DNA of 47,757 nt from a virus: the IMG/VR virus record IMGVR_UViG_3300042556_001041, positions 1-47,757 of that record; one strand, given 5' to 3'. Position numbers and translations under genes: made by a program. Below are positions 5,212-27,533 of this stretch, piece after piece. The first letter of the stretch is position 1. Every line of letters begins with the position of its first letter. The notes beneath the pieces were generated by a model. It had not been told where the DNA came from and did no database searches. It worked only from the letters and a program-made list of their open reading frames with translations.

Positions 5212-5604
5212 TCAGCCTGTCGCCTCAGTCGTGCCGATGGCTTCAATCCGTACCGTGATCCCCACGTCGGCCCGTGGCGCCTTGACGACCTCCACGAGTA
5301 GTCGCCGCACCTGGCTATCGTTGGCGATGATCCCGGCATCTTGGAGGGCGTCGAGAACCGCCCCGGCGGCGTTGTCTACGTCGGGCCGCATGTTGCCGGT
5401 GGCGGTGCGATAGGTGACGGCGACGGCGATGGGCTCTGTGATCGGCTCACGTCTCCCCGTGCCGGTCTGGCTTCTCGTCATCAGCACGAACTCATGCCGC
5501 CATTGCCGGAACTTCGGGGCGACCATGTGCCGCCCGCTGACGTTGTGGAACCGCGCCCGGTCCTTGGCGTGCGGCTTCATGCCAGGGAATGTCAGGGTGA
5601 TCAT
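5212..5604 (-). CDS. RusA-like Holliday junction resolvase
   Basis: 130 aa, the usual RusA length. Nuclease that cuts recombination and replication junctions. The N-terminal FPGMKPHAKDRARF matches the family entry, and the acidic core is RPDVDNAAGAVLDALQDAG followed by ANDSQV, giving three aspartates equivalent to E. coli D70, D72 and D91. The residue aligned with the essential E. coli Lys76 is Gly here. Overlaps the upstream gene by ATGA and ends the replication operon. Confidence 0.88.
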   Translation of the reverse strand: MITLTFPGMKPHAKDRARFHNVSGRHMVAPKFRQWRHEFVLMTRSQTGTGRREPITEPIAVAVTYRTATGNMRPDVDNAAGAVLDALQDAGIIANDSQVRRLLVEVVKAPRADVGITVRIEAIGTTEATG

Positions 5605-6631: not shown

Positions 6632-8058
6632 GCGCTTGCTCCATAGGTCTGCGTGAGGGGTTCGGGGGAGTTGAGGAAGTCGTAGGGGCGGGCTTGGGCC
6701 GTGGCCGCCGCCCGGTGGTCAACCTGTGCCGGGTCGTTGTCAAAGCCCAGCGTCTCGAATGCCGCCGTGGCCTTGCTGTAAAAGAGCTTTACCGTGCCCG
6801 TGGTGCCGTCTCGGTGCTTGGCGACGATGACCTCGGCCGTGTCGCCTTCTTTGCTCTCCGGGTCGTAGTAGGCGTCCCGGTAGACAAACAGAACCTTGTC
6901 GGCGTCTTGTTCCAGGCTGCCGCTCTCCCGGAGGTCGGACAGCATCGGGCGCTTGTTGGTCCGCTGCTCGACTTGCCGGTTAAGCTGAGACAGGACCAGT
7001 ACCGGGCAATCGAACTCCTTGGCCATGAGCTTGATGCCCCGGCTGATGCGGCTCATCTCCTGCGTCCGGTTCTCGGCCTTGCCGTCGGGCTCCATCAGGC
7101 CGATGTGATCGACGATGATCAGGCCAAGCTGCCCCGCCTCTCGCTGGACCCGCCGGCACTTCGCCCGCATCTGCTGCGAGGTGACTTCGCCGTTGTCGTC
7201 GATGTACAGCGGCCAATCGCCCATGCGGCCCATTGCCTTCGCCAGCTTGTCCCAATCGCCGTCACGCATGGCCCCGGTCATCTGCATGGCCATGCCGTTG
7301 ACTTTGGCGTTGGTCGCCATCAACCGGCGGGCGATGCTCTCCGAGGTCATTTCCAGGCTGAACAGCATGACCGGGCGCCCCTGGGCTCCCGCGACCGCCG
7401 CAGCGATCCCGGCCGCCAATGCCGTCTTGCCCATCGCCGGGCGCGCCGCGAGCAGCACCATTTCGCCAGGCGACATACCGACGGCCGTCGCGTCGAGGTC
7501 GGGATACCCGAACGAGATGAACCGCCCGTCGTCCTCGCCGGATTGCCGGCGCTCGATGTCCTGGTACGCCTTGCTCATCACGTCGGACAGGCGGCGGATG
7601 TCGCGGCCGGCATCGAAGCCAGCGGCACCGGAGACGCCCCGCTCGGCGGCCTCGATGACCTCGCCCAGCCTGCGCCGCTCGTCCTGAGCCCCAGCGATCA
7701 TCTCCATGGCCGACCGGATCAGCCGCCGGCGGCTGGCGAGTTCGTTCAGCCTGCCGGCGTGGTGCTCGACGTTGGCCGTGGTGTAAACGTCGTTGACCAG
7801 CGCGGCGAGGTAGCCTGGGCCGCCCACGTCGTCGAGTTGCCCGGCCACCCGGAGAGCCCCGGCGGTCGCCAACAGGTCGGCCGTCTGCCGTGTGGCGCTG
7901 AGGCGGGCGATGGCCTGAAAGATCATCCGATGCCCGTTGCCGTAGAAGGCATCCGGCGTCAGGAGGTGCATTACCTCGGCCTGGGCCTGTGCGTCGTACA
8001 TGGCGGCACCGAGCACCGCCCGCTCCAAGTCGTCATCATGCGGCATCGTGTCAGACAT
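6628..8058 (-). CDS. dnaB: Replicative DNA helicase, DnaB type
   Basis: 476 aa hexameric helicase that unwinds the replication fork. The N-terminal helical domain (LERAVLGAAMYD and onward to about 110) is followed by the RecA-like ATPase: Walker A ARPAMGKTAL (205-214), FSLEMTSE, Walker B LIIVDHIGLM (313-322), the SQLNRQVE sensor segment and DLRESGSLEQDAD near 380. Overlaps the upstream initiator gene by 8 bases, as expected for a loader/initiator-helicase pair. Confidence 0.95.
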   Translation of the reverse strand: MSDTMPHDDDLERAVLGAAMYDAQAQAEVMHLLTPDAFYGNGHRMIFQAIARLSATRQTADLLATAGALRVAGQLDDVGGPGYLAALVNDVYTTANVEHHAGRLNELASRRRLIRSAMEMIAGAQDERRRLGEVIEAAERGVSGAAGFDAGRDIRRLSDVMSKAYQDIERRQSGEDDGRFISFGYPDLDATAVGMSPGEMVLLAARPAMGKTALAAGIAAAVAGAQGRPVMLFSLEMTSESIARRLMATNAKVNGMAMQMTGAMRDGDWDKLAKAMGRMGDWPLYIDDNGEVTSQQMRAKCRRVQREAGQLGLIIVDHIGLMEPDGKAENRTQEMSRISRGIKLMAKEFDCPVLVLSQLNRQVEQRTNKRPMLSDLRESGSLEQDADKVLFVYRDAYYDPESKEGDTAEVIVAKHRDGTTGTVKLFYSKATAAFETLGFDNDPAQVDHRAAATAQARPYDFLNSPEPLTQTYGASA

Positions 8059-9073
8059 GGACGCCTCCGAACCCGTGGTTGATCAGCCACGCATCGACCT
8101 TGGCGGCTTCGTGGGGCCGCTCGGCCTGACAGGCCTTGGCGGCGGCGATGATCTCTGCGTCGGTGTAGTCGGCCCGGTGGCGGCTGACGATGCAGAAGTG
8201 CTCGAAGGCGGTACGGGGAACCGGCTGGGCTTGGTTGGCTGGGCCGGCTTGAACGAACAGCGATGCGGGCGGCTTGGCCTGCGCCGGGGTGGCGTTTCTC
8301 AGCCAGTTGCCGACACGGCCGACGGCGCCAGGACCAACCTTGTCCGGGTTGTCCCGCATCCACTGGATGCAGCTGTGGATCTCTGCCTCGACATCGAGAC
8401 GAGGGAATGCCGCCCGCCACTCGGCGACCTTCTCCAGCGTGATCGGCACGTCGGGCAAGGTCTTACCGGCGGTGCCGGCCTTGGTGCGAGCCGGTGCCCA
8501 TGCGAACACCGAGGCAGTCGGCCTGCCGTTCAGGCCCGAAGGGTGAGCATCGTTGCCCCCTTGGGGGGTAAAGGGGGGATTCTCTTGAGATGGAATAGGA
8601 GATGGAGATGGTATAGGGGCATTGCTGTTTTCGGTTTTCGGCAGTGCCGGTTTGTTCGGGCCGCTATGCTGATCGATGCTGACCGCATTGCTGTCTGCAC
8701 GATTGGGCATTGCCCGTTTACGTTCCCACCTTTGCTCAGCGGCGGATCGGCTTTGCTCGGAGCGGGCCTGAGCATTGGCCGCCCAGCCGTTGTGCATTGC
8801 CCAATCGTGAATGACGAATGCTCCGTCGACGTCGTCGAGAAACCGGCACTCCATCAGGCCGCTGATGAAGATGACCGGGTCATCGGACCAGCCGGCGGCG
8901 ATGGCGATGTCCTCCTCGGACATGCCAGCAAGGCGACCGTCGGGCTTGTTCTGTGCGGTGAACCCGTAGAGGGCGATCAGGGACAGCACCCCGTCCGCTC
9001 CAATGCGCCGGCGAAGTTTGACCGTCTTGGGGTGGCCGATGAAGCCGACCGACAACCGGAAGTCTTTGTTCAT
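8051..9073 (-). CDS. Replication initiator/helicase-loader-like protein
   Basis: 340 aa. The N-terminal ~110 residues (MNKDFRLSVGFIGHPKTVKL, then SEEDIAIAAGWS and FVIHDWAMHNG) match winged-helix replisome-organiser domains of phage replication proteins. A low-complexity linker (PIPSPSPIPSQ) separates a C-terminal part with VAEWRAAFPRLDVEAEI and an HFCIVSRHRA segment. It directly precedes dnaB. It probably binds the phage origin and recruits DnaB; the origin was not located. Confidence 0.8.
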   Translation of the reverse strand: MNKDFRLSVGFIGHPKTVKLRRRIGADGVLSLIALYGFTAQNKPDGRLAGMSEEDIAIAAGWSDDPVIFISGLMECRFLDDVDGAFVIHDWAMHNGWAANAQARSEQSRSAAEQRWERKRAMPNRADSNAVSIDQHSGPNKPALPKTENSNAPIPSPSPIPSQENPPFTPQGGNDAHPSGLNGRPTASVFAWAPARTKAGTAGKTLPDVPITLEKVAEWRAAFPRLDVEAEIHSCIQWMRDNPDKVGPGAVGRVGNWLRNATPAQAKPPASLFVQAGPANQAQPVPRTAFEHFCIVSRHRADYTDAEIIAAAKACQAERPHEAAKVDAWLINHGFGGVHV

Positions 9074-20130: not shown

Positions 20131-21639
20131 ATGCCAACGCACGCCGCCATCCTCTGCCGGGTCAGCACCGAGGCCCAGCGGGACAACACCAGCCTCGACG
20201 AGCAGCGCCGGATCCTGACCGAACTATGCGAGCGGCAAGGCTGGACGTGGGAGGCGTTCGAGGAGGTCGAGAGCGGCGGGGCAGGGGTCGCCAACCGGCC
20301 CATCCTCGCGGCCATCCTCGGGCGCATCGCCGCCGGGGAGTTTCAGCGCCTGGTGGTCTTGGCTCAAGACCGTCTCTCACGGGCGGGCGTGGGCGAACTG
20401 GAGCAGATCAGCGCAATCCTCGCCAAGATCGGGGCGCGCCTCGTCACCCAGTCCGGGGAGTTCGACCCGAACAACGCCGACCACACGCTAATCCAGGACA
20501 TCAACGCCGTGGTGGCGAAACGGGAACGGGCGGCCATCAAAGAGCGGACGATCCGGGGGCGGGAGGCGCGGGTGAAGGCGGGCGGGTTTGCCGGCCATGC
20601 CGTCCCGTTCGGCTGGCGGCGGATCTGGAACCCCGACGGCACCTACCGCTTTGAGATCGAACCCGACGAGGCCGCGGTCGTGCGGGCCATCGTCGACGCC
20701 TACGCCGAAGGGGTCGACGGGATCCACCTCGTCGCCGAGCGCATTGGCCTGCCGTTTGCGAAGGTCCGCTACATCCTGACCAACCCCCGCTACGCCGGAA
20801 TCGAGAGTTACCGGGCGGGGCGGGATGCCCGCCGCAAAACAGACCGGCCGCCCATCGTGGTCCCGTCGGCAGTCTGGCCGGCGATCATCACGGCCGATCA
20901 GTGGGCGGCGGTGCAGGCCGTCAAGTCTCGCCGTCGAGACGAGCCGAGGGCGTCGGGCATCGGGCGCGCCGGGCCGGCAAAGCACCCTCTGTCCGGGATC
21001 GTCGTCTGCCGCCGATGCGACCGGGGCATGACGATGTTGCAGAAGGCTGGCCGATCCTACTACCACTGCGGCTACCGGGACTGCCCGAGGCAGGACAACG
21101 CCCGGGCCGAGGACTGCCACCGGCTGACGCTGGCGGCCCTGCCGGCGATTCTTGCCCACCGCGAGGCGGAATTGCTCGTCCGGGCGACGGATGACGGGTC
21201 GGCGGCGGAATTGGCCGGGCTTCGTGCTGCGATCCTGCGGGCTGAGCAGTCGGAGTTAGACCTCTGGACCGAGCGCCAGGCCGGGCGGTTGGATCCGGCG
21301 CAGTGGTCCCGGATGAATGCCAGGCTGTCCGATGAGCGGGCGGGCATTGAGAGGCAGGCGGCGGCCATCGAGAGCAGGCGGCGTGCGCACGGGCCGGCAC
21401 CGATGACGGCGGGTGAGGCTGCGGACATCGTCGCCAACGCCGATCACATCCTCAGCGACTGGCCGACGTTGCGCCGGTTGTTCGCCGCCCTGCTGTCCCG
21501 TGTCGAGGTGGCGAAGGTCGCCTACGTCACCCACGAGTGCGGCCGGGGGCGTCGCCCGGTTATCGCTATCCGTGCCGCCGTTGACCATGACGGCGTGCGC
21601 TGGGAGGCTCCGGGCGTCGGTCCCGACTGTGACATCTAA
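20131..21639 (+). CDS. Large serine recombinase (integrase)
   Basis: 502 aa. Integrates and excises the phage by a Ser-linked mechanism. The catalytic domain opens HAAILCRVSTEAQRDNTSLD with nucleophile Ser12, then VVLAQDRLSRAG and the KRERAAIKERTIRG helix. The recombinase domain has PFGWRR and ILTNPRYAGI. The zinc ribbon is CRRCDRGM...YYHCGYRDC. A coiled-coil stretch (about 370-430) precedes the end. No good ribosome site precedes the ATG, so initiation may be weak. No excision factor is obvious; the HTH protein at 12643 is a candidate. Confidence 0.93.
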   Translation: MPTHAAILCRVSTEAQRDNTSLDEQRRILTELCERQGWTWEAFEEVESGGAGVANRPILAAILGRIAAGEFQRLVVLAQDRLSRAGVGELEQISAILAKIGARLVTQSGEFDPNNADHTLIQDINAVVAKRERAAIKERTIRGREARVKAGGFAGHAVPFGWRRIWNPDGTYRFEIEPDEAAVVRAIVDAYAEGVDGIHLVAERIGLPFAKVRYILTNPRYAGIESYRAGRDARRKTDRPPIVVPSAVWPAIITADQWAAVQAVKSRRRDEPRASGIGRAGPAKHPLSGIVVCRRCDRGMTMLQKAGRSYYHCGYRDCPRQDNARAEDCHRLTLAALPAILAHREAELLVRATDDGSAAELAGLRAAILRAEQSELDLWTERQAGRLDPAQWSRMNARLSDERAGIERQAAAIESRRRAHGPAPMTAGEAADIVANADHILSDWPTLRRLFAALLSRVEVAKVAYVTHECGRGRRPVIAIRAAVDHDGVRWEAPGVGPDCDI

Positions 21640-21739: not shown

Positions 21740-21780
21740 GTTGCAATTACAGGCATGCTCGCTTATGCTGTATTTGCAAC
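21740..21780. promoter_or_regulatory. Two operator repeats at the DpdA-cassette promoter
   Basis: Inverted copy GTTGCAATTACA (21740-21751) and TGTATTTGCAAC (21769-21780), the same family as the sites at 19429-19502. One covers the -35 and the other abuts the -10. GCAAC-T-GTTGC at 21734-21744 adds a short palindrome. Confidence 0.6.
21741..21769 (+). promoter_or_regulatory. Rightward promoter of the C2H2/DpdA cassette
   Basis: TTGCAA (21741-21746), a 17-base spacer and TATGCT (21764-21769). Lies 49 bases ahead of the C2H2 gene. Overlap with the operator repeats suggests repressor control. Confidence 0.5.
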
Positions 21781-21802
21781 ACACACGCCGGACGAACCGG
21801 CA

Positions 21803-21817
21803 GACGAGGGGGACGAG
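21803..21817 (+). promoter_or_regulatory. Start-associated sequence, copy 1
   Basis: GACGAGGGGGACGAG directly abuts the ATG at 21818. The identical 15 bases abut the GTG at 22015. The GAGGGGG core can act as a ribosome site, which fixes both starts. Confidence 0.7.
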
Positions 21818-21955
21818 ATGACGACGACCGATGAAAAGCGCTTTACCTGCAAATGCGGGAAGTCGTTCAAGTCCAAGCTCGGATTGATGCAGCACACACA
21901 GAAGGCGCACGGCGTCGACCTCCGGAGCGCTCGCTATGACGAGTTGGTGATCTAG
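21818..21955 (+). CDS. C2H2-like zinc-finger protein (45 aa)
   Basis: FTCKCGKSFKSKLGLMQHTQ then KAHG: a single classical-looking finger, but with C-x-C in place of the usual C-x2-4-C and H-x4-H at the end. The rest is a short tail (VDLRSARYDELVI). C2H2 fingers are rare in phages. It shares the 15-nt start sequence with the DpdA-like gene downstream. Confidence 0.7.
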   Translation: MTTTDEKRFTCKCGKSFKSKLGLMQHTQKAHGVDLRSARYDELVI

Positions 21956-21968
21956 ACCCCAACCCCGA

Positions 21969-21989
21969 GCCGCAGCGGGTGACTGCGGC
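21969..21989 (+). ncRNA. Intergenic hairpin motif, copy 1
   Basis: CCGA-GCCGCAG-CGGGTGA-CTGCGGC: a 7-bp perfect stem with loop CGGGTGA, between the C2H2 and DpdA-like genes. The same flank and loop recur at 23015-23036 and 27165-27185. No T-tract follows, so it is not a standard terminator. Confidence 0.6.
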
Positions 21990-21999
21990 AATCAATAAA

Positions 22000-22014
22000 G
22001 ACGAGGGGGACGAG
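22000..22014 (+). promoter_or_regulatory. Start-associated sequence, copy 2
   Basis: GACGAGGGGGACGAG abutting the GTG at 22015, identical to 21803-21817. It supports GTG 22015 as the start over the in-frame ATG at 21979, which would translate the hairpin. Confidence 0.7.
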
Positions 22015-22779
22015 GTGAAGATTTACCTGGCGGGAGGGGCGATGGCATGGAAAGCGCAACTCCAAGGCCATAATCTTCTCGTCTCGTTCGCTGAGCGCAG
22101 CCAGTTAAAACTTCTGGATGCCGGGTGGGATGTGTCCGGGTGGATGCTAGACAGCGGCGCCTTTGCGGCGTGGACGCTGGGCAAGCCCGTGGACCTGGAA
22201 GCCTACGGGCGTTTCATCGACAAGCATGAAAGCCTGTTGGACTACGCCGTTTCGCTCGACGTGATCCCCGGCAAGCCCGGCCGGTTGCCGACACAGGATG
22301 AAGCGGCGGCAGCTGTTGAGCAGAGCCTCGCCAACCTGCAACGCTTAGAGCAGATGCTGGGCAAAGGCACGGTGATGCCGGTCTTTCACGAGGGCGACCC
22401 GCTGTGGTTGCTGGACGAGTACGCCGGGCGGGGATATGACCGCATCGCCCTCGGGGCCACAGCCTCACGGGGCAAGCCCGAACTGCTGGACTGGCTTCTG
22501 CCCATCTTCGACCGCCACCCGGCGCAGGACTTCCACGGGCTCGGGATGACTCAAAGTCGGATCATCGGCCACGTTCCGTTTGCCTCGGTGGACAGTACGA
22601 CATGGTTGAACTTCGTCCGGTATGGCGTGGACAGCAACACCTACCTACTCAAGGGGCGCACCCGTGAGTTCCTGCGGGCCTTGGGTATCGCCGCCCTGCA
22701 TGACATTGCCCAATGCCCGAGGGGCGTACAGGCGACCAGAGACGGCCAATTAAGGATGTTCCCTGATGAGGCGGTGTAG
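22015..22779 (+). CDS. DpdA-like tRNA-guanine-transglycosylase-fold protein (7-deazaguanine DNA modification)
   Basis: 254 aa. Motifs: LDSGAFAAW (45-53), SLDVIPG (80-86, candidate catalytic Asp82), MPVFHEGD (121-128), YDRIALGA (141-148), FHGLGMTQ (173-180) and SVDSTTW (191-197). This is the pattern of short phage TGT-like proteins of the DpdA group, which swap guanine in DNA for a 7-deazaguanine base. The zinc site of tRNA TGTs is absent. No preQ0 synthesis genes (folE, queD, queE, queC types) were found, so host precursor would be needed. The activity is inferred from family resemblance only. Confidence 0.75.
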   Translation: MKIYLAGGAMAWKAQLQGHNLLVSFAERSQLKLLDAGWDVSGWMLDSGAFAAWTLGKPVDLEAYGRFIDKHESLLDYAVSLDVIPGKPGRLPTQDEAAAAVEQSLANLQRLEQMLGKGTVMPVFHEGDPLWLLDEYAGRGYDRIALGATASRGKPELLDWLLPIFDRHPAQDFHGLGMTQSRIIGHVPFASVDSTTWLNFVRYGVDSNTYLLKGRTREFLRALGIAALHDIAQCPRGVQATRDGQLRMFPDEAV

Positions 22780-22975
22780 TTGTGGGCGAGAGGCCAGGCC
22801 GGCTGGCATCTACTGCGGCGACGAGTGCAAGTGGGAAGCGAAGAAGGCTCGACTACGGGAGCGTAGACGTGTCGCCAACGGATACCTGCGCTGCTGTCTC
22901 TGCGACAGGGTTGGGGGCAAGCACTGGGACTGGTGCAAGCGATCAGGGGTGGGCGTCGGTGCTGGCCAGAGTTGA
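22766..22975 (+). CDS. Small two-module zinc protein (69 aa)
   Basis: Overlaps the DpdA-like gene by 14 bases. First module CSCGREARPAGIYCGDEC (C4, C6, C17, C21), a compressed form of the fingers in the protein at 16566-17372. Second module CCLCDRVGGKHWDWC matches that protein's C-terminal CxxC.R.G...H..WC unit. Probably a mini-paralogue. Its coupling to DpdA suggests a partner or DNA-binding adaptor. Confidence 0.7.
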   Translation: MRRCSCGREARPAGIYCGDECKWEAKKARLRERRRVANGYLRCCLCDRVGGKHWDWCKRSGVGVGAGQS

Positions 22976-23014
22976 GGCCGGCGAACAGATGGACGCCCCG
23001 TGTTAGACCCCCGA

Positions 23015-23036
23015 GCCGCAGCGGGTTGACTGCGGC
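23015..23036 (+). ncRNA. Intergenic hairpin motif, copy 2
   Basis: GCCGCAG (23015-23021), loop CGGGTTGA, CTGCGGC (23030-23036), with CCGA before it. A second hairpin GCCCC-AC-GGGGC follows at about 23041-23052. Lies between the small zinc gene and the coiled-coil gene. Confidence 0.6.
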
Positions 23037-23070
23037 GTGAGCCCCACGGGGCAGATAGGAGCGTGAGGGG

Positions 23071-23472
23071 ATGAGCGAAGACACGGCGTCATCGCAGGCG
23101 TACCCAGGTTGCACGACCATGCGCCTGATCGAGCGGGTCGAGCGGGTAAAGGCCGAGCGTGACCGCTACATGGCCGAGGCGTCCGAGCGGCAGCAGGCCA
23201 TCGGCAGGCTTGAGGCCGAGCGGGACGCCCTCGCTGCCCAGCTTGAGCGGGATTGCAACGCCCTCAACTGCCTGATTGACGACGAGCGGGCAATCAATCA
23301 GACGATGGCTGCCCAGTGTGCTGCATTGGCCGAGGAATGCGGCGCCAACCCCAACGACATCCCCGCCGCCGCTGCCGTGTATCTTGCGGCTGAGCGGGCC
23401 ATGGAGGCGCACGGCGATCCGGTGATGTGGACGCCGGCCCTAATCGCATGGCGGAAGGCGGCAGGCAAATGA
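23071..23472 (+). CDS. Coiled-coil protein (133 aa)
   Basis: MRLIERVERVKAERDRYMAE and EASERQQAIGRLEAERDALA form a clear heptad coiled coil (about 17-62). A helical C-terminal half follows with VYLAAERAMEAHGDP and ALIAWRKAAG. ATG 23071 follows GAGGGG. Last gene of the plus-strand cassette; role unknown. Confidence 0.75.
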   Translation: MSEDTASSQAYPGCTTMRLIERVERVKAERDRYMAEASERQQAIGRLEAERDALAAQLERDCNALNCLIDDERAINQTMAAQCAALAEECGANPNDIPAAAAVYLAAERAMEAHGDPVMWTPALIAWRKAAGK

Positions 23473-23484
23473 CCCCAAACGCAG

Positions 23485-23520
23485 AAAAGCGGGGGACCGA
23501 GCGTTAGCCCGATCCCCCGC
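23485..23520 (-). terminator. Terminator of the late (structural) transcript
   Basis: Stem GCGGGGGA/TCCCCCGC (23489-23496 and 23513-23520), 16-base loop, followed by TTTT on the minus strand. It sits 59 bases past the stop of the last fibre gene, between converging transcripts. The remaining part of the 106-bp gap shows nothing else. Confidence 0.65.
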
Positions 23521-23578
23521 CCCATCGCATCCCGACGGCTCGCCCATCCACTGACTGCCCGCCGGGAATCCTCTATAG

Positions 23579-24997
23579 CTACTCGAAATAGCCGTTAACA
23601 AACACGACCCCTCGCAGGATTTGCGACCCAGTAGCCGTGCCAACAGGAACCTTTAGCAGCATGTGCAAATAGTTGCCTGCCTCGACGAACAGCGGCGTAT
23701 CGAACGTTACAACGATCGGGGTTGCCTGAGCGCCAATCGCCGCACCGACCGGGAACGACTGATAACCGAGGGTCAATCGACGGGCCGCCTTGGTGCCGGC
23801 ACCTTCCGCCGTGGCCATCGTCACCGCCGTCGCCCCGACGCCAAGTCCCCACTGCATGATGGTCGCCGTCGTCGCCACAGCGGCGCCGGTGTTTACAGCG
23901 TCGATGCGGATCCCGGTCACGTACAGGTTTTTGCCGCTGATGGCATTGCTGGCGGCAGGCACCTGGAACGCAAACAGGATCAGGTCGGTCTCAGCGCCCG
24001 CTGGTGCTGCGATTTGCCATTGCCCGCCGAGCGTCGCGTAGCCGGCTGTGGTATTGGTGGCGCCAGTCGCCGACGCAGGGGCCGCCGAGTTGGCGTAGTT
24101 GGCGGTGGTGCCCATCGTGCCGCCGGTCTGGCCCTGATACGAGCCGCCGCCCATGCCGGCGAGGACGTGGGGCCACGGTTTCCCGGTCTGCGTGTCGCCG
24201 ATGGTGGCGAAACAATCAGCGACGAGGATTTGGACCGCCTGCGCAACGGTGTTGTTGTTGTAAACCCGGTAGACCATTGGCTGAGAGTTGGAGGCGGTCG
24301 GACTGTCGAGGCCTGCGGGCGTCGGAATGATGACCTGCAGAACGTCGTCGACCCAAAACTCAACTCCGTCCTGACCGACAACGATGGAGTACTTGTGTCG
24401 CTCGTTGACGCTCGGCGATGTCAGGACGCCGCTCTGCGTCTCGACGCCGGCATTGTTGATGACACACCGAAACTCGCCAGAGGCCCACCTGAAAAACACG
24501 CCATCAGTCGGCGCCGACGTGCCGGCAACGAGGCCCGCCCCAATCTCGACAACGGCGTTAGCCTGCACGCCCGTGATCACCGCCGTCGTTTCAAAATATG
24601 TGGGGAACGAGCCGTACAGGGGGAACGTCCGATAGCTGCGGAGGATGGCGAGGTGCCCAGATGTCAGGGAGTTGCCAGCGTTGAGGCGGGCGAACCCACC
24701 AGACACGGTCAGCGTCATGGTGGTCAGGCTCTGGAACCATTGCGCCGTGTTGAGGGCAGTACCCAGAAACGCCTCGGAGAGCAGCACCGAATCCATGCCG
24801 ACACGCAGGCGGTAGTCCGTTGTGGCCTCGGGCTCACGGGTGACTCGGGTGCCGGTGGTGGATCCTTCGTCGACGCAACTCAGCATTGCGGCGTAGCCGG
24901 CCTGGGCGGGCACGATGGGCAGGTTGGTTTGCAGGTTGTTGTCTGCGTCAACGGCGGCCGTATTCGCGGAACTGCCGGATTTGATGATGATGCTCAT
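23579..24997 (-). CDS. Tail/fibre-associated structural protein (472 aa)
   Basis: From ATG 24997 with AAGGAG upstream. MSIIIKSGSSANTAAVDADN then a lectin/laminin-G-like middle (FFRWASGEFRCVINNAG, VGQDGVEFWVDDVLQVIIPT) and a Gly/Thr-rich C-terminal part. It resembles phage surface proteins that bind polymers. Last gene of the late operon and part of the fibre cluster; a head-fibre role is possible. Confidence 0.65.
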   Translation of the reverse strand: MSIIIKSGSSANTAAVDADNNLQTNLPIVPAQAGYAAMLSCVDEGSTTGTRVTREPEATTDYRLRVGMDSVLLSEAFLGTALNTAQWFQSLTTMTLTVSGGFARLNAGNSLTSGHLAILRSYRTFPLYGSFPTYFETTAVITGVQANAVVEIGAGLVAGTSAPTDGVFFRWASGEFRCVINNAGVETQSGVLTSPSVNERHKYSIVVGQDGVEFWVDDVLQVIIPTPAGLDSPTASNSQPMVYRVYNNNTVAQAVQILVADCFATIGDTQTGKPWPHVLAGMGGGSYQGQTGGTMGTTANYANSAAPASATGATNTTAGYATLGGQWQIAAPAGAETDLILFAFQVPAASNAISGKNLYVTGIRIDAVNTGAAVATTATIMQWGLGVGATAVTMATAEGAGTKAARRLTLGYQSFPVGAAIGAQATPIVVTFDTPLFVEAGNYLHMLLKVPVGTATGSQILRGVVFVNGYFE

Positions 24998-25007
24998 GGT
25001 GGTCTCC

Positions 25008-25943
25008 TTAGGCGCCAGTGGCGTGGATGGTATAGCGGCCCCAGGTGCCATGCGGCGCCCGGACGTAAACGGTGAACCCGACGCCAGCCTGCCTGTTGCC
25101 GGCGTAGGCGATCAGCCCCTCTGCGACGGGGTCGTCTGGGTCATGGTCGGCCGTCGCCGAAGCGGCGACGCTAATGATGATCTGGCTGGTTTCCGTGACC
25201 CACGGGGCGGCGATGTCGGCACTGGCTATGTCGCCCTCACCGCTGGCGGCGTAGCCAAAATCGACCGTGCCCGTGGCCGTGTTGGTTGATCCTGCGGGGC
25301 CGGTCGCTCCGGTTGGCCCCGCTGGGCCTGTGGCACCCGCCGGGCCAGTGGCCCCAGCCGGGCCTTGAGGACCAGTGGCACCGGCAGGGCCAGTCGCTCC
25401 GGTTGGACCTGTAGATCCGGTTGCACCAGTTGGCCCCGCTGGGCCCGTTGGCCCAGGTACGGTGGAATCAGCGCCCGTGGCTCCGGTTGCCCCGTCGGCT
25501 CCTGCCGGTCCCGCTGGCCCTGCCGGTCCCGCTGGCCCTGCCGGTCCCGCTGGCCCTGTTGGGCCCGCTGGTCCGGTCGCTCCCGTCGGCCCTGGCACCG
25601 TGGAATCGGCCCCCGTGGCGCCCGCTGGGCCCTGAGGCCCGGTTGGGCCTGCGGGTCCGGTAGCACCCGTCGCTCCGGTGGCGCCGGTAGGCCCTGGGTC
25701 GCCCTGCGGACCGGTTGGTCCCTGCGGGCCAGTCTCGCCCGTTGCGCCCGTTGCCCCTGTCGGCCCCGTGGCGCCAGTTGGGCCGGCAGGCCCTGTGGGT
25801 CCGGTCGGGCCAGTCGGACCCGGCACGGTCGAAGCCGCACCAGTGGCCCCAGTTGCACCCGTGGCGCCGACGGGTCCGGGCGGCCCCTGCGTCCCGACGG
25901 TGCGGGTTGATAACACTGGATCCCTGATAATGATCCGCCTCAT
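25008..25943 (-). CDS. Collagen-like tail fibre protein (311 aa)
   Basis: From ATG 25943. After [17 protein letters not shown] come about 65 Gly-X-Y triplets (mostly GPT, GAT, GPA), interrupted by a thrice-repeated STVPGPTG block, then a non-repetitive C-terminal head of about 100 residues ([20 protein letters not shown] onward). Collagen triplets make a trimeric rigid shaft; the C-terminal head is like those of phage fibres of the DUF2793 or neck-passage type. Repeats may vary in number by recombination. Confidence 0.85.
25290..25895 (-). repeat. Collagen-triplet coding repeat
   Basis: GC-rich 9-bp-based repetition encoding the Gly-X-Y shaft, with long imperfect direct copies such as the GPAGPAGPA run. 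It creates long open frames on both strands that are not genes. Confidence 0.8.
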
Positions 25944-26845
25944 GCGCTGATGACCTCCAGCAATTCCGCTGTGCCGCCGTCCACTCGCTCGACGATTGCC
26001 CCGGACGTGAGCACGATGTCCCAGACGGCGGCGCCGCTCCATGACAAATCGCCCGTATCAGAGGATGAGACCTCGACGCTGATTGCCCCCGATGGGCCGT
26101 CGATCGTGATCTCGCCGCTGCTGGTTCCCCAGTCGAACACCGAATCATCGGCGGTGGCGCTGAGCCTGCCCATCATGCGGGCGGAGTAACCTGTCAGGTC
26201 GACGGGACCACTGGCGTCTGCGTAGACGATTGACCAGCGGAACGTGGCGCCCCGGTAGATGGTGAGCGTCAGCGGGTCGTCGTCGGCTGATGCCTGCAAC
26301 TCCGTAAAGTCGGCATCTTCTGCGGGCGTCTGCCGATGCAGCCGGGAGCCGTCTGGGAAAAGCCACACGGACGGACGATCCAGCGGAATGCCGGTGATTT
26401 GCCACGATCCATCAACGGCAATGCTGGATTCGTAGCTCCTGGTCAGGTAGGTCTGAATGCCGCCGTTGGTCGGCGCCAGCAAACGCATCTCGACCTTCCG
26501 ATTGGTCGTCCCCGTCGCCCACTGCTCGTCGAGTTTTCCCGAGACGACGCATTCGTAATCCGACTGATCGCCCGGCAGGATCGGCAGCGTCGGCAGGCCC
26601 GTGGTCCCGTCCGAGTAGGTCGGCACCAGGCGATAGAGCCATGCCCCGTTGGTGAGCAGCGTCAGTCCGTGATTGGTGGCGTAGCTGACGCCGACCGTGC
26701 TGCCGCTGAATGTCAGGGCGCTGACGGTGACGACCCCGGCCGCTGGCTGCGTGGTGTCGTTGGCCCATGCCCCGCCGGCGAGCAGTTGGCGCTGCACCTG
26801 ATACGTCGTCGGCTGCGGGCTGGTGTAGTAGATGGCGAGTGGCAT
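25940..26845 (-). CDS. Tail fibre/receptor-associated protein (301 aa)
   Basis: [20 protein letters not shown]; the middle repeats beta-strand patterns ([40 protein letters not shown]). The C-terminal third, [20 protein letters not shown] with ARMMGRL, resembles the BppU-like N-terminal domain of phage tail proteins. ATGA overlap with the collagen-like gene. First gene after the moron on this strand. Confidence 0.65.
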
Positions 26846-26906
26846 ATCTGAACTCCCCGCCGCTAGGGCGTCTGTGCGATTGCTTGTTTATTTTCGCTAT
26901 CGCCTA

Positions 26907-26935
26907 TTGACCTGCAAGCGGATTAGCGATATTGT
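26907..26935 (+). promoter_or_regulatory. Promoter of the plus-strand moron
   Basis: TTGACC (26907-26912), a 17-base spacer and TATTGT (26930-26935), in an AT-rich stretch unlike its surroundings. TCGCTA before and TAGCGA within the spacer form an inverted pair that could be an operator. Confidence 0.6.
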
Positions 26936-26979
26936 TAATTCATCGGGGGACGAACCGCCGACCAACCGGAGACAAGACG

Positions 26980-27150
26980 ATGACCAACGAACTCGCTACC
27001 CTCGCCGCCGAAGTCGCCACCCTCACCATTCAGCACATGGCCGACGAAGCCGGCTTGACCTTCGGTGAGACTGTCGCCGCCATCGCCCAAGGTGGCAACG
27101 CCGCCGCCCGGTTCACCGCCTACATCAAGACCGCCCAAGCCAACATCTAA
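26980..27150 (+). CDS. Moron protein 1 (56 aa)
   Basis: MTNELATLAAEVATLTIQHM then ADEAGLTFGETVAAIAQGGN; all-helical, Ala-rich, no motif recognised. Ribosome site CGGAGACAAG nearly matches that of the next gene, and both proteins start MTN. First gene of the inserted cassette. Confidence 0.7.
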   Translation: MTNELATLAAEVATLTIQHMADEAGLTFGETVAAIAQGGNAAARFTAYIKTAQANI

Positions 27151-27164
27151 CTCCCACCACCCGA

Positions 27165-27185
27165 GCCGGGCGGGTTGCCCCCGGC
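27165..27185 (+). ncRNA. Intergenic hairpin motif, copy 3 (covarying stem)
   Basis: CCGA-GCCGGG-CGGGTTGCC-CCCGGC: the CCGA flank and CGGGTTG loop of copies 1 and 2 are kept, while both sides of the stem changed together (GCAG/CTGC to GGG/CCC). Between moron genes 1 and 2. Confidence 0.6.
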
Positions 27186-27208
27186 ATAGAGGACAGGAGA
27201 CAACGACC

Positions 27209-27388
27209 ATGACCAACGCCGCCGACATGACCATCATTCGCACCCACGCTGACGGCAGTGCCGCCCTCTGGACTGAAACGATCAACGGGAAAACCCATCT
27301 GTGCGACGACAACCATAGCTACGTCATCAACAAATCCGAACTGGCCGAGGAAATCGCCCTCTGGGATAAGGCTGTCGGCAATGCCTGA
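27209..27388 (+). CDS. Moron protein 2 (59 aa)
   Basis: MTNAADMTIIRTHADGSAAL then WTETINGKTHLCDDNHSYVI; a small mixed alpha/beta protein, no known motif. CAGGAGACAACGACC precedes the ATG. Overlaps the RHH gene by 8 bases. Confidence 0.7.
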   Translation: MTNAADMTIIRTHADGSAALWTETINGKTHLCDDNHSYVINKSELAEEIALWDKAVGNA

Positions 27389-27533
27389 ACCCACGAAGCG
27401 GGGCCGAGGCAGGCCCACCACAGGAACCCCAGTCCTGATCCGCCTGACGCCTGAGCAGCTGGCATGGATCGACGGACAGGGCAGACGCCCCGAGGTCATC
27501 CGGCAAGTGATCCAGCAGGCCATGGCCACCTAA
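27381..27533 (+). CDS. Moron ribbon-helix-helix protein with AT-hook-like start (50 aa)
   Basis: MPEPTKRGRGRPTTGTPVLI then RLTPEQLAWIDGQGRRPEVI: a basic RGRGRP AT-hook-like segment followed by a beta-strand and two helices of RHH type. Likely DNA-binding, perhaps autoregulating the cassette. An antitoxin role is possible but the sequence does not show it. A terminator follows 8 bases later. Confidence 0.75.
   Translation: MPEPTKRGRGRPTTGTPVLIRLTPEQLAWIDGQGRRPEVIRQVIQQAMAT

Follow-up and report, generated by a model that had tools for sequence, protein, structure and literature searches.

The stretch of DNA analysed here (the window) comprises all 47,757 bases of the IMG/VR virus record IMGVR_UViG_3300042556_001041. 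It contains three copies of a short RNA element, each located on the plus strand between the stop codon of one small gene and the start codon of the next (Table 1). Ten large open reading frames (ORFs) of the window were scanned, and nine matched phage families, including tail sheath, tape measure, baseplate, head protease, DnaB-like helicase, RecT-like protein, and integrase; the integrase (20131-21639) matched DNA invertases as well. Copies 1 and 2 were found within the small plus-strand genes immediately downstream of this integrase; one of these genes is zinc-finger-like, one is queuine tRNA-ribosyltransferase-like, and two have no family. Copy 3 belonged to a distinct plus-strand cassette made up of tiny genes. 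One of these (27381-27533, plus strand) encodes a repressor-like protein of 50 amino acids, similar to a family of phage transcriptional repressors (phrog_4738, E 4.7e-4), and overlaps the gene 3' of copy 3.

Table 1. Parts of the three window pseudoknots and the genes on either side of them (S, stem; L, loop; aa, amino acids; nt, nucleotides).
Feature	Coordinates	Strand	Details
Gene 5' of copy 1	21755..21955	+	66 aa, C2H2 zinc-finger-like (phrog_35915, E 9.7e-4; Pfam match below cut-off); stop 8 nt before pseudoknot
Pseudoknot copy 1	21964..21989	+	S1 21964-21967/21976-21979 (CCCG/CGGG); L1 21968 (A); S2 21969-21975/21983-21989 (GCCGCAG/CTGCGGC); L3 21980-21982 (TGA)
Gene 3' of copy 1	22015..22779	+	254 aa, queuine tRNA-ribosyltransferase-like (phrog_887, E 8e-39); GTG 25 nt past pseudoknot
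Gene 5' of copy 2	22782..23006	+	74 aa, family search negative; stop 3 nt before pseudoknot
Pseudoknot copy 2	23010..23036	+	S1 23010-23013/23022-23025 (CCCG/CGGG); L1 23014 (A); S2 23015-23021/23030-23036 (GCCGCAG/CTGCGGC); L3 23026-23029 (TTGA)
Gene 3' of copy 2	23071..23472	+	133 aa, no family at E <0.001; ATG 34 nt past pseudoknot
Gene 5' of copy 3	26980..27150	+	56 aa from ATG, family search negative; stop 9 nt before pseudoknot
Pseudoknot copy 3	27160..27185	+	S1 27160-27163/27171-27174 (CCCG/CGGG); L1 27164 (A); S2 27165-27170/27180-27185 (GCCGGG/CCCGGC); L3 27175-27179 (TTGCC)
Gene 3' of copy 3	27209..27388	+	59 aa, family search negative; ATG 23 nt past pseudoknot

A sequence-only reading of the window had described three hairpins at these sites, with the S2 stems of Table 1, a CCGA flank, and a CGGGT(T)G loop, each between a stop and the next start, and all three were present as described. 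In every case the upstream flank CCCG was complementary to the loop CGGG, indicating that each site is, by its pairing potential, a compact H-type pseudoknot of about 25 nt rather than a plain hairpin, with an S1 of 4 base pairs (bp), an L1 of 1 nt, an S2 of 6-7 bp, no L2, and an L3 of 3-5 nt. The S1/L1/S2/L2/L3 sizes were 4/1/7/0/3, 4/1/7/0/4, and 4/1/6/0/5, and S1 of copy 3 could gain an optional extra pair (27159 A with 27175 T). The S2 hairpins alone gave -12.2 to -15.1 kcal/mol, and the sites would be expected to fold into the pseudoknot inside the cell. When the window was scanned for a strict architecture (S1 4 bp, L1 1, L2 0, S2 6-8, L3 3-6), three pseudoknots were obtained, all of them 3-11 nt past the stop of an ORF of at least 50 aa, compared with a mean of 0.94 anywhere and 0.05 stop-proximal (maximum 2) in 100 dinucleotide shuffles of the window. 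The exact GCCGCAG...CTGCGGC stem pattern occurred twice, against a mean of 0.02 in shuffled sequence. A looser scan added three unrelated sites with S1 and S2 together of at least 10 bp, one on the plus strand (14115) and two on the minus strand. The third stem, read earlier as changed on both sides with pairing kept, does pair; however, it has 6 bp and is not a compensated version of the 7-bp stem. Taken by themselves, the three window copies therefore give weak evidence of covariation. The strong covariation evidence comes from relatives outside the window.

Relatives were sought in IMG/VR with two patterns in which S1 and the outer S2 pairs were fixed and four inner S2 positions per strand were left free (G or C). 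These patterns matched 14 contigs (CCCG/CGGG) and 28 contigs (GCCG/CGGC), respectively, 42 in all. S2 was fully complementary in 39 of the 42 (13/14 and 26/28), whereas about 1 in 16 would be expected per register by free G/C choice. The three imperfect matches were L153 (5/6 pairs, 9 nt past a stop), L176 (5/6, within an open frame), and L196 (4/6). A control pattern with one S1 base changed, so that the first pair became G.G, matched a single contig, and its S2 was unpaired too, in contrast to 14 matches with C-G and 28 with G-C at this pair. In the alignment of all 43 matches, misses included (17 distinct rows), 91.7% of cells were paired, compared with 81.6% when shuffled and at most 59.1% when slid; the covariation score was 0.240 versus 0.091 shuffled, and 0 of 500 shuffles reached the observed score. 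Variation in S1 was confined to the first pair, the only one that the S1 test covers, and the other three of the four were invariant. Compensatory change was thus present in each of two interleaved helices, as in an H-type pseudoknot. The unpaired L1 and L3 varied among copies, and no strictly conserved unpaired residues were found. The earlier view of a structured RNA motif with compensatory changes is upheld by these pairings, except that the motif is a pseudoknot and not a hairpin with a conserved loop; its further copies in front of small phage genes were recovered by these scans as anticipated.

Although the search patterns include neither stop nor start codons, the matches were placed narrowly between the two. 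The stop of an ORF of at least 40 aa was present within 30 nt upstream in 38 of the 42 matches, with a median distance of 9 nt for the 38, and 34 of the 42 were 5-13 nt from it. Downstream, a start codon with a Shine-Dalgarno-like sequence was detected in 37 of the 42 (median 15 nt for the 37; 33/42 at 10-18 nt). The spacer from stop to knot was A/C-rich, with 7% G, and the medians together with the knot length give a junction of about 49 nt (9 + 25 + 15). A broader scan (S1 with at least 3 G/C, any S2), whose loci had been picked by knot sequence and not by distance, placed 25 stop-to-knot distances in the 5-9 nt bin, whereas each of the remaining 5-nt bins received 0 to 7. Of the 69 copies in a wider collection, picked as lying 2-30 nt past a stop, 58 were at 5-13 nt. 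Several pairs of copies occupied successive junctions (for example in L147, L192, L199, L202, and MMP7).

Further versions of the element were recovered with other patterns. Most of the records are uncultured contigs, the genes of which were called by ORF scanning only. IMG/VR scans with a fixed S2 yielded 13 contigs for GCCGGGG, nine of them within 30 nt past the stop of an ORF of at least 40 aa, and six for CCCCGG; among the latter, L126 and L138 met the same distance, L139 was inside a long ORF, and L140, L141, and L142 stood before a Shine-Dalgarno-like sequence and a start, with no such stop within 30 nt. Among the matches listed for a broad pattern, at least 13 loci outside the window had a CCCGA/CGGG pseudoknot, and five of these (L014, L025, L043, L054, and L070) were no more than 30 nt past the stop of an ORF of at least 40 aa. 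Genome contigs scanned with one S2 version gave three matches, of which L131 was inside long open frames and L132 and L133 were intergenic. In bacterial genomes, with one phylum per pattern, the CCCG pattern was found in 0 of 301 and the GCCG pattern in 0 of 296, both patterns being blind to the 7-bp S2 copies known there (L132 and L133). The strict architecture was absent from phiC31, lambda, and T7 (129,930 bases), indicating that the element is not universal. With a covariance model, one copy was found in 11 of 13 whole records and two in the other two, where the second copy of G028 was weak (E 0.14). The sequence-only reading had also held that the element travels with accessory genes. No evidence for a mobile unit was found; S2 differed between copies in 11, and S1 in 4, of the 14 records with more than one copy. 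One of the two copies in L206 is on the opposite strand and may be due to chance.

The DNA phages carrying the knot include tailed double-stranded DNA phages and single-stranded DNA Microviridae, and their hosts belong to different phyla. Within a plus-strand operon of four genes, Meiothermus phage MMP7 carries two copies. A single copy is present in Dulem virus 34, placed between two annotated genes, and two Microviridae records from pig faeces (4685 and 4590 bases, both marked UNVERIFIED) have one copy each; in one of these, MG945747, the knot was found 19 nt from the stop. In these named carriers L1 was T or TG, G, C, and T, indicating that A at L1 is not essential. Because genomes as small as those of the two Microviridae carry the knot, a factor that recognises it, if there is any, probably comes from the host, as the ribosome does. 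Intergenic copies were also present in a Streptomyces contig and an Anaerolineae contig, and the Streptomyces copy is probably in a prophage because its upstream protein is a phage major tail protein. The flanking genes were small (medians of 101 aa upstream and 87 aa downstream). The flanking sets held 69 downstream and 70 upstream proteins, with L070 and L127 excluded; 67 and 58 were scanned, most of the omitted upstream proteins being ones included among the downstream proteins as well. No PHROG or Pfam family occurred in more than two of the 67 downstream or two of the 58 upstream proteins, and the majority matched none.

At the gathering score, no Rfam match was obtained in the window or in eight loci (139,755 bases). 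Permissive Rfam scans over the element gave sub-threshold matches only, to PyrR205 (22.8 bits, window 27130-27188) and to SorX (46.0 versus 46.6 over L127). Megablast of window positions 1-25000 against phages returned no match. A short-query blast with one relative returned 91 records, mostly Pseudomonas phages aligned at query positions 6-29, a span lacking the 5' strand of S1; phage 73 and KL1 were the two of these records examined. A match in Fionnbharth was rejected because it was inside a gene and its S2 was not paired, and a plasmid search gave seven weak records. The element's description was not found in the open PMC literature or in Rfam, and it may be catalogued outside these. Other RNAs were encountered near some copies. 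In L179, a type II hammerhead ribozyme (5440-5506; 48.7 bits, above gathering) was detected about 450 nt downstream of the pseudoknot on the same phage contig, and self-cleaving RNAs and these knots may share accessory-gene regions. A Twister-P5-like sequence just under gathering (36.5 versus 37.6 bits) was located at L192:948-1009, with two pseudoknot copies downstream of it; when most of that record was scanned at the gathering level, no such match was obtained. A c4-2 RNA-like sequence on the minus strand of L024 (4934-4997), also just under gathering (39.4 versus 41 bits), was directly upstream of a pseudoknot. In the window itself, the minus strand at 25200-25920 contains GC-rich triplet repeats that, read by eye, resemble collagen-like Gly-X-Y codons.

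The data directly support two helices with covariation, their placement between stop and start, their spread over unrelated phages, and, in general, the absence of a T-tract and of an open frame conserved past the stop. As to function, we propose that the element is a pseudoknotted ribosome termination structure (RTS), which would insulate neighbouring cistrons from its position between a stop and the next ribosome-binding site; we give this proposal an even chance of being correct. A ribosome terminating at the upstream stop would cover the A/C-rich spacer, leaving the knot folded against the edge of the ribosome. The spacer is like the 6-9 nt reported for frameshift pseudoknots (PMC3835772), so the knot would stand roughly at the mouth of a ribosome with the stop in its A site. 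The folded knot could then act as a rigid barrier to post-termination scanning and re-initiation, and the adjacent Shine-Dalgarno sequence would be left free for independent initiation at the next gene. A stable structure right after the stop has been reported to lower re-initiation in a synthetic Escherichia coli operon (Chemla 2020, PMC7518266), a finding cited in a review (PMC12548453). According to the same report, such structures are enriched at junctions with 25 nt or more between the two genes, and insulation of cistrons was proposed (PMC7518266).

Several observations weigh against an insulating role, or against counting every copy as an instance of it. The knot is placed as tightly relative to the start as to the stop, so a role in initiation fits too, and several copies lose one of the two spacings. 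The window copies are farther from their starts than is typical, and copy 2 is unusually close to its stop (Table 1). Chemla et al. report such structures to be depleted within operons (PMC7518266). The 42 matches are partly redundant, L187 and L191 being one junction. With a covariance model built without the window, which represents S2 alone and not the second helix and whose E-values are rough, copy 3 was recovered at 31.1 bits (E 1.2e-5), whereas copies 1 and 2 reached just E 0.074 and the next, unrelated matches 0.24. Finally, TTTT occurred within 12 nt of 3 of the 68 wider-set copies, the window copies not among them. Two of the three, L132 and L160, are terminator-like, with T-runs after the knots at 7959-7985 and 8834-8860 (minus strand), respectively, and an S1 of GCCC/GGGC in L160; these two knots may double as intrinsic terminators.

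The knot could instead be an mRNA stability or processing element, blocking exonucleases and protecting either the upstream message at its 3' end or the downstream message at its 5' end. A GC-rich fold set tightly between two cistrons, whose S2 changes in sequence while its structure is kept, agrees with such a function, which we nevertheless consider unlikely, as protection alone leaves the narrow stop and start spacings unexplained. It also seems unlikely that the knot is simply an initiation aid, which would keep the Shine-Dalgarno sequence free of upstream pairing or position the 30S subunit with no effect on the upstream gene. A Shine-Dalgarno-like sequence often follows directly after the knot (AGAAAGGA, AGGAGG), with the start close behind; however, L185, L194, L154, and L189 keep the stop spacing yet sit 26-48 nt from the start, and window copies 1 and 3 are likewise distant.

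Quite improbable, in our estimate, is a translational operator bound by a phage protein, as in the T4 gene 32 pseudoknot with gp32. The gene 32 leader has a near-identical architecture, and gp32 binding and autoregulation have been published (PMC535899, PMC3014915). On the other side, the genes flanking the present element are mixed, a single phage can hold several differing copies, small Microviridae carry the knot, and the gene 32 knot is itself placed differently with respect to stop and start. A recoding signal, in which the knot would stimulate stop-codon readthrough or frameshifting as in murine leukaemia virus, is very improbable. The spacer resembles that of frameshift stimulators, a viral readthrough knot is reported several nt past its UAG (PMC3835772), and the downstream start falls unequally in the three frames (19, 8, and 7 of 34); yet all three frames are represented, and no long open frame is generally kept beyond the stop, as a recoding stimulator would require (medians of 13, 17, and 16 codons in frames 0, -1, and +1; at least 40 codons open in 3, 6, and 9 of 38, respectively). 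Intrinsic terminators or a riboswitch can hardly account for the element despite its GC-rich stem and the T-runs in L160 and L132, because no T-tract follows any of the window copies, as the sequence-only reading had correctly noted, TTTT was found in the next 12 nt of 0 of 41 pattern matches, gene functions are mixed, and the varying unpaired positions, with no strictly conserved residues for an aptamer, make ligand binding unlikely.

Once recoding, termination, and ligand binding are judged unlikely, what would remain is a mechanical part between two ribosomes, in line with the proposed insulation of cistrons. More broadly, and with somewhat less than an even chance, the knots may represent a new class of phage cis-acting RNA, a miniature pseudoknot serving as a standard gene-junction part of unrelated DNA phages, fitted to the geometry of the terminating and the initiating ribosome and letting cargo genes stack without translational cross-talk. 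If so, the operator of T4 gene 32 could be a relative with this fold that was co-opted. How bacteria and phages stop adjacent cistrons from interfering is unsettled, and the RTSs proposed so far have folding energy as their sole definition. Because S1 and S2 can be separately broken and restored, a recurrent knot with a fixed architecture would provide a clean test of insulation. If the role is confirmed, the knot would suit synthetic operons as a compact insulator and would also mark arrays of accessory genes in phages.

Among known systems, the start-associated elements (SAS/ESAS) of cluster K mycobacteriophages, to which the hairpins had been likened, are similar in position only, in that they recur in intergenic regions where translation of non-structural phage genes starts (PMC3203893). 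They consist of a conserved 13-bp sequence, GGGATAGGAGCCC, about half of them with 17-bp inverted repeats; the passages describing them (PMC3203893) do not mention a pseudoknot, and the 13-mer had 0 matches in the window at up to two mismatches. STAXI (RF01728) is likewise a simple pseudoknot, reported near genes for DNA-handling proteins (PMC2864571); no Rfam covariance-model match to it was obtained in the window or the scanned relatives. The H-type pseudoknot of murine leukaemia virus also lies several nt past a stop, but is reported to be needed for readthrough (PMC3835772), whereas the phage junctions generally keep no open frame beyond the stop.

The leader of T4 gene 32 (TGCC-A-GCTATGA-GGTA-AAGTG-TCATAGC) has the same topology and nearly the same lengths (S1 4 with one G.U pair, L1 A, S2 7, L2 0, L3 5), and the window copies conform to this 4/1/7/0/5 architecture. 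This knot was read from the T4 sequence by eye, the strict scan missing it owing to the G.U pair. It too belongs to a phage mRNA and precedes a start codon. Unlike the present element, it is a single operator serving a single gene; it is bound by gp32 and ends 39 nt before the start codon, with an A/U-rich downstream part and no stop 5-13 nt before the knot. In T4 (L253, near 147.9 kb) the stop codon of the upstream segG is inside S2 of this pseudoknot, an overlap also described in PMC535899. Copy 1 precedes a queuine tRNA-ribosyltransferase-like gene and not one for a single-strand-binding protein, and no single-strand-binding family was found among the 67 downstream proteins, though most of these match no family.

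There is also a likeness to the RTS of Chemla et al. (2020, PMC7518266), described as a stable mRNA structure straight after the stop, near the edge of the ribosome-shielded mRNA, and enriched at junctions of at least 25 nt. The present element agrees with this description in that 34 of 42 matches place a stable structure directly downstream of a stop, as measured by distance and not by the paper's own energy statistic. The words 'pseudoknot' and 'phage' occur 0 times in the main text of that paper. The RTS is defined there by folding energy, whereas the element described here is one recurrent pseudoknot of fixed architecture, found in phages and tied to the next start as well as to the stop.

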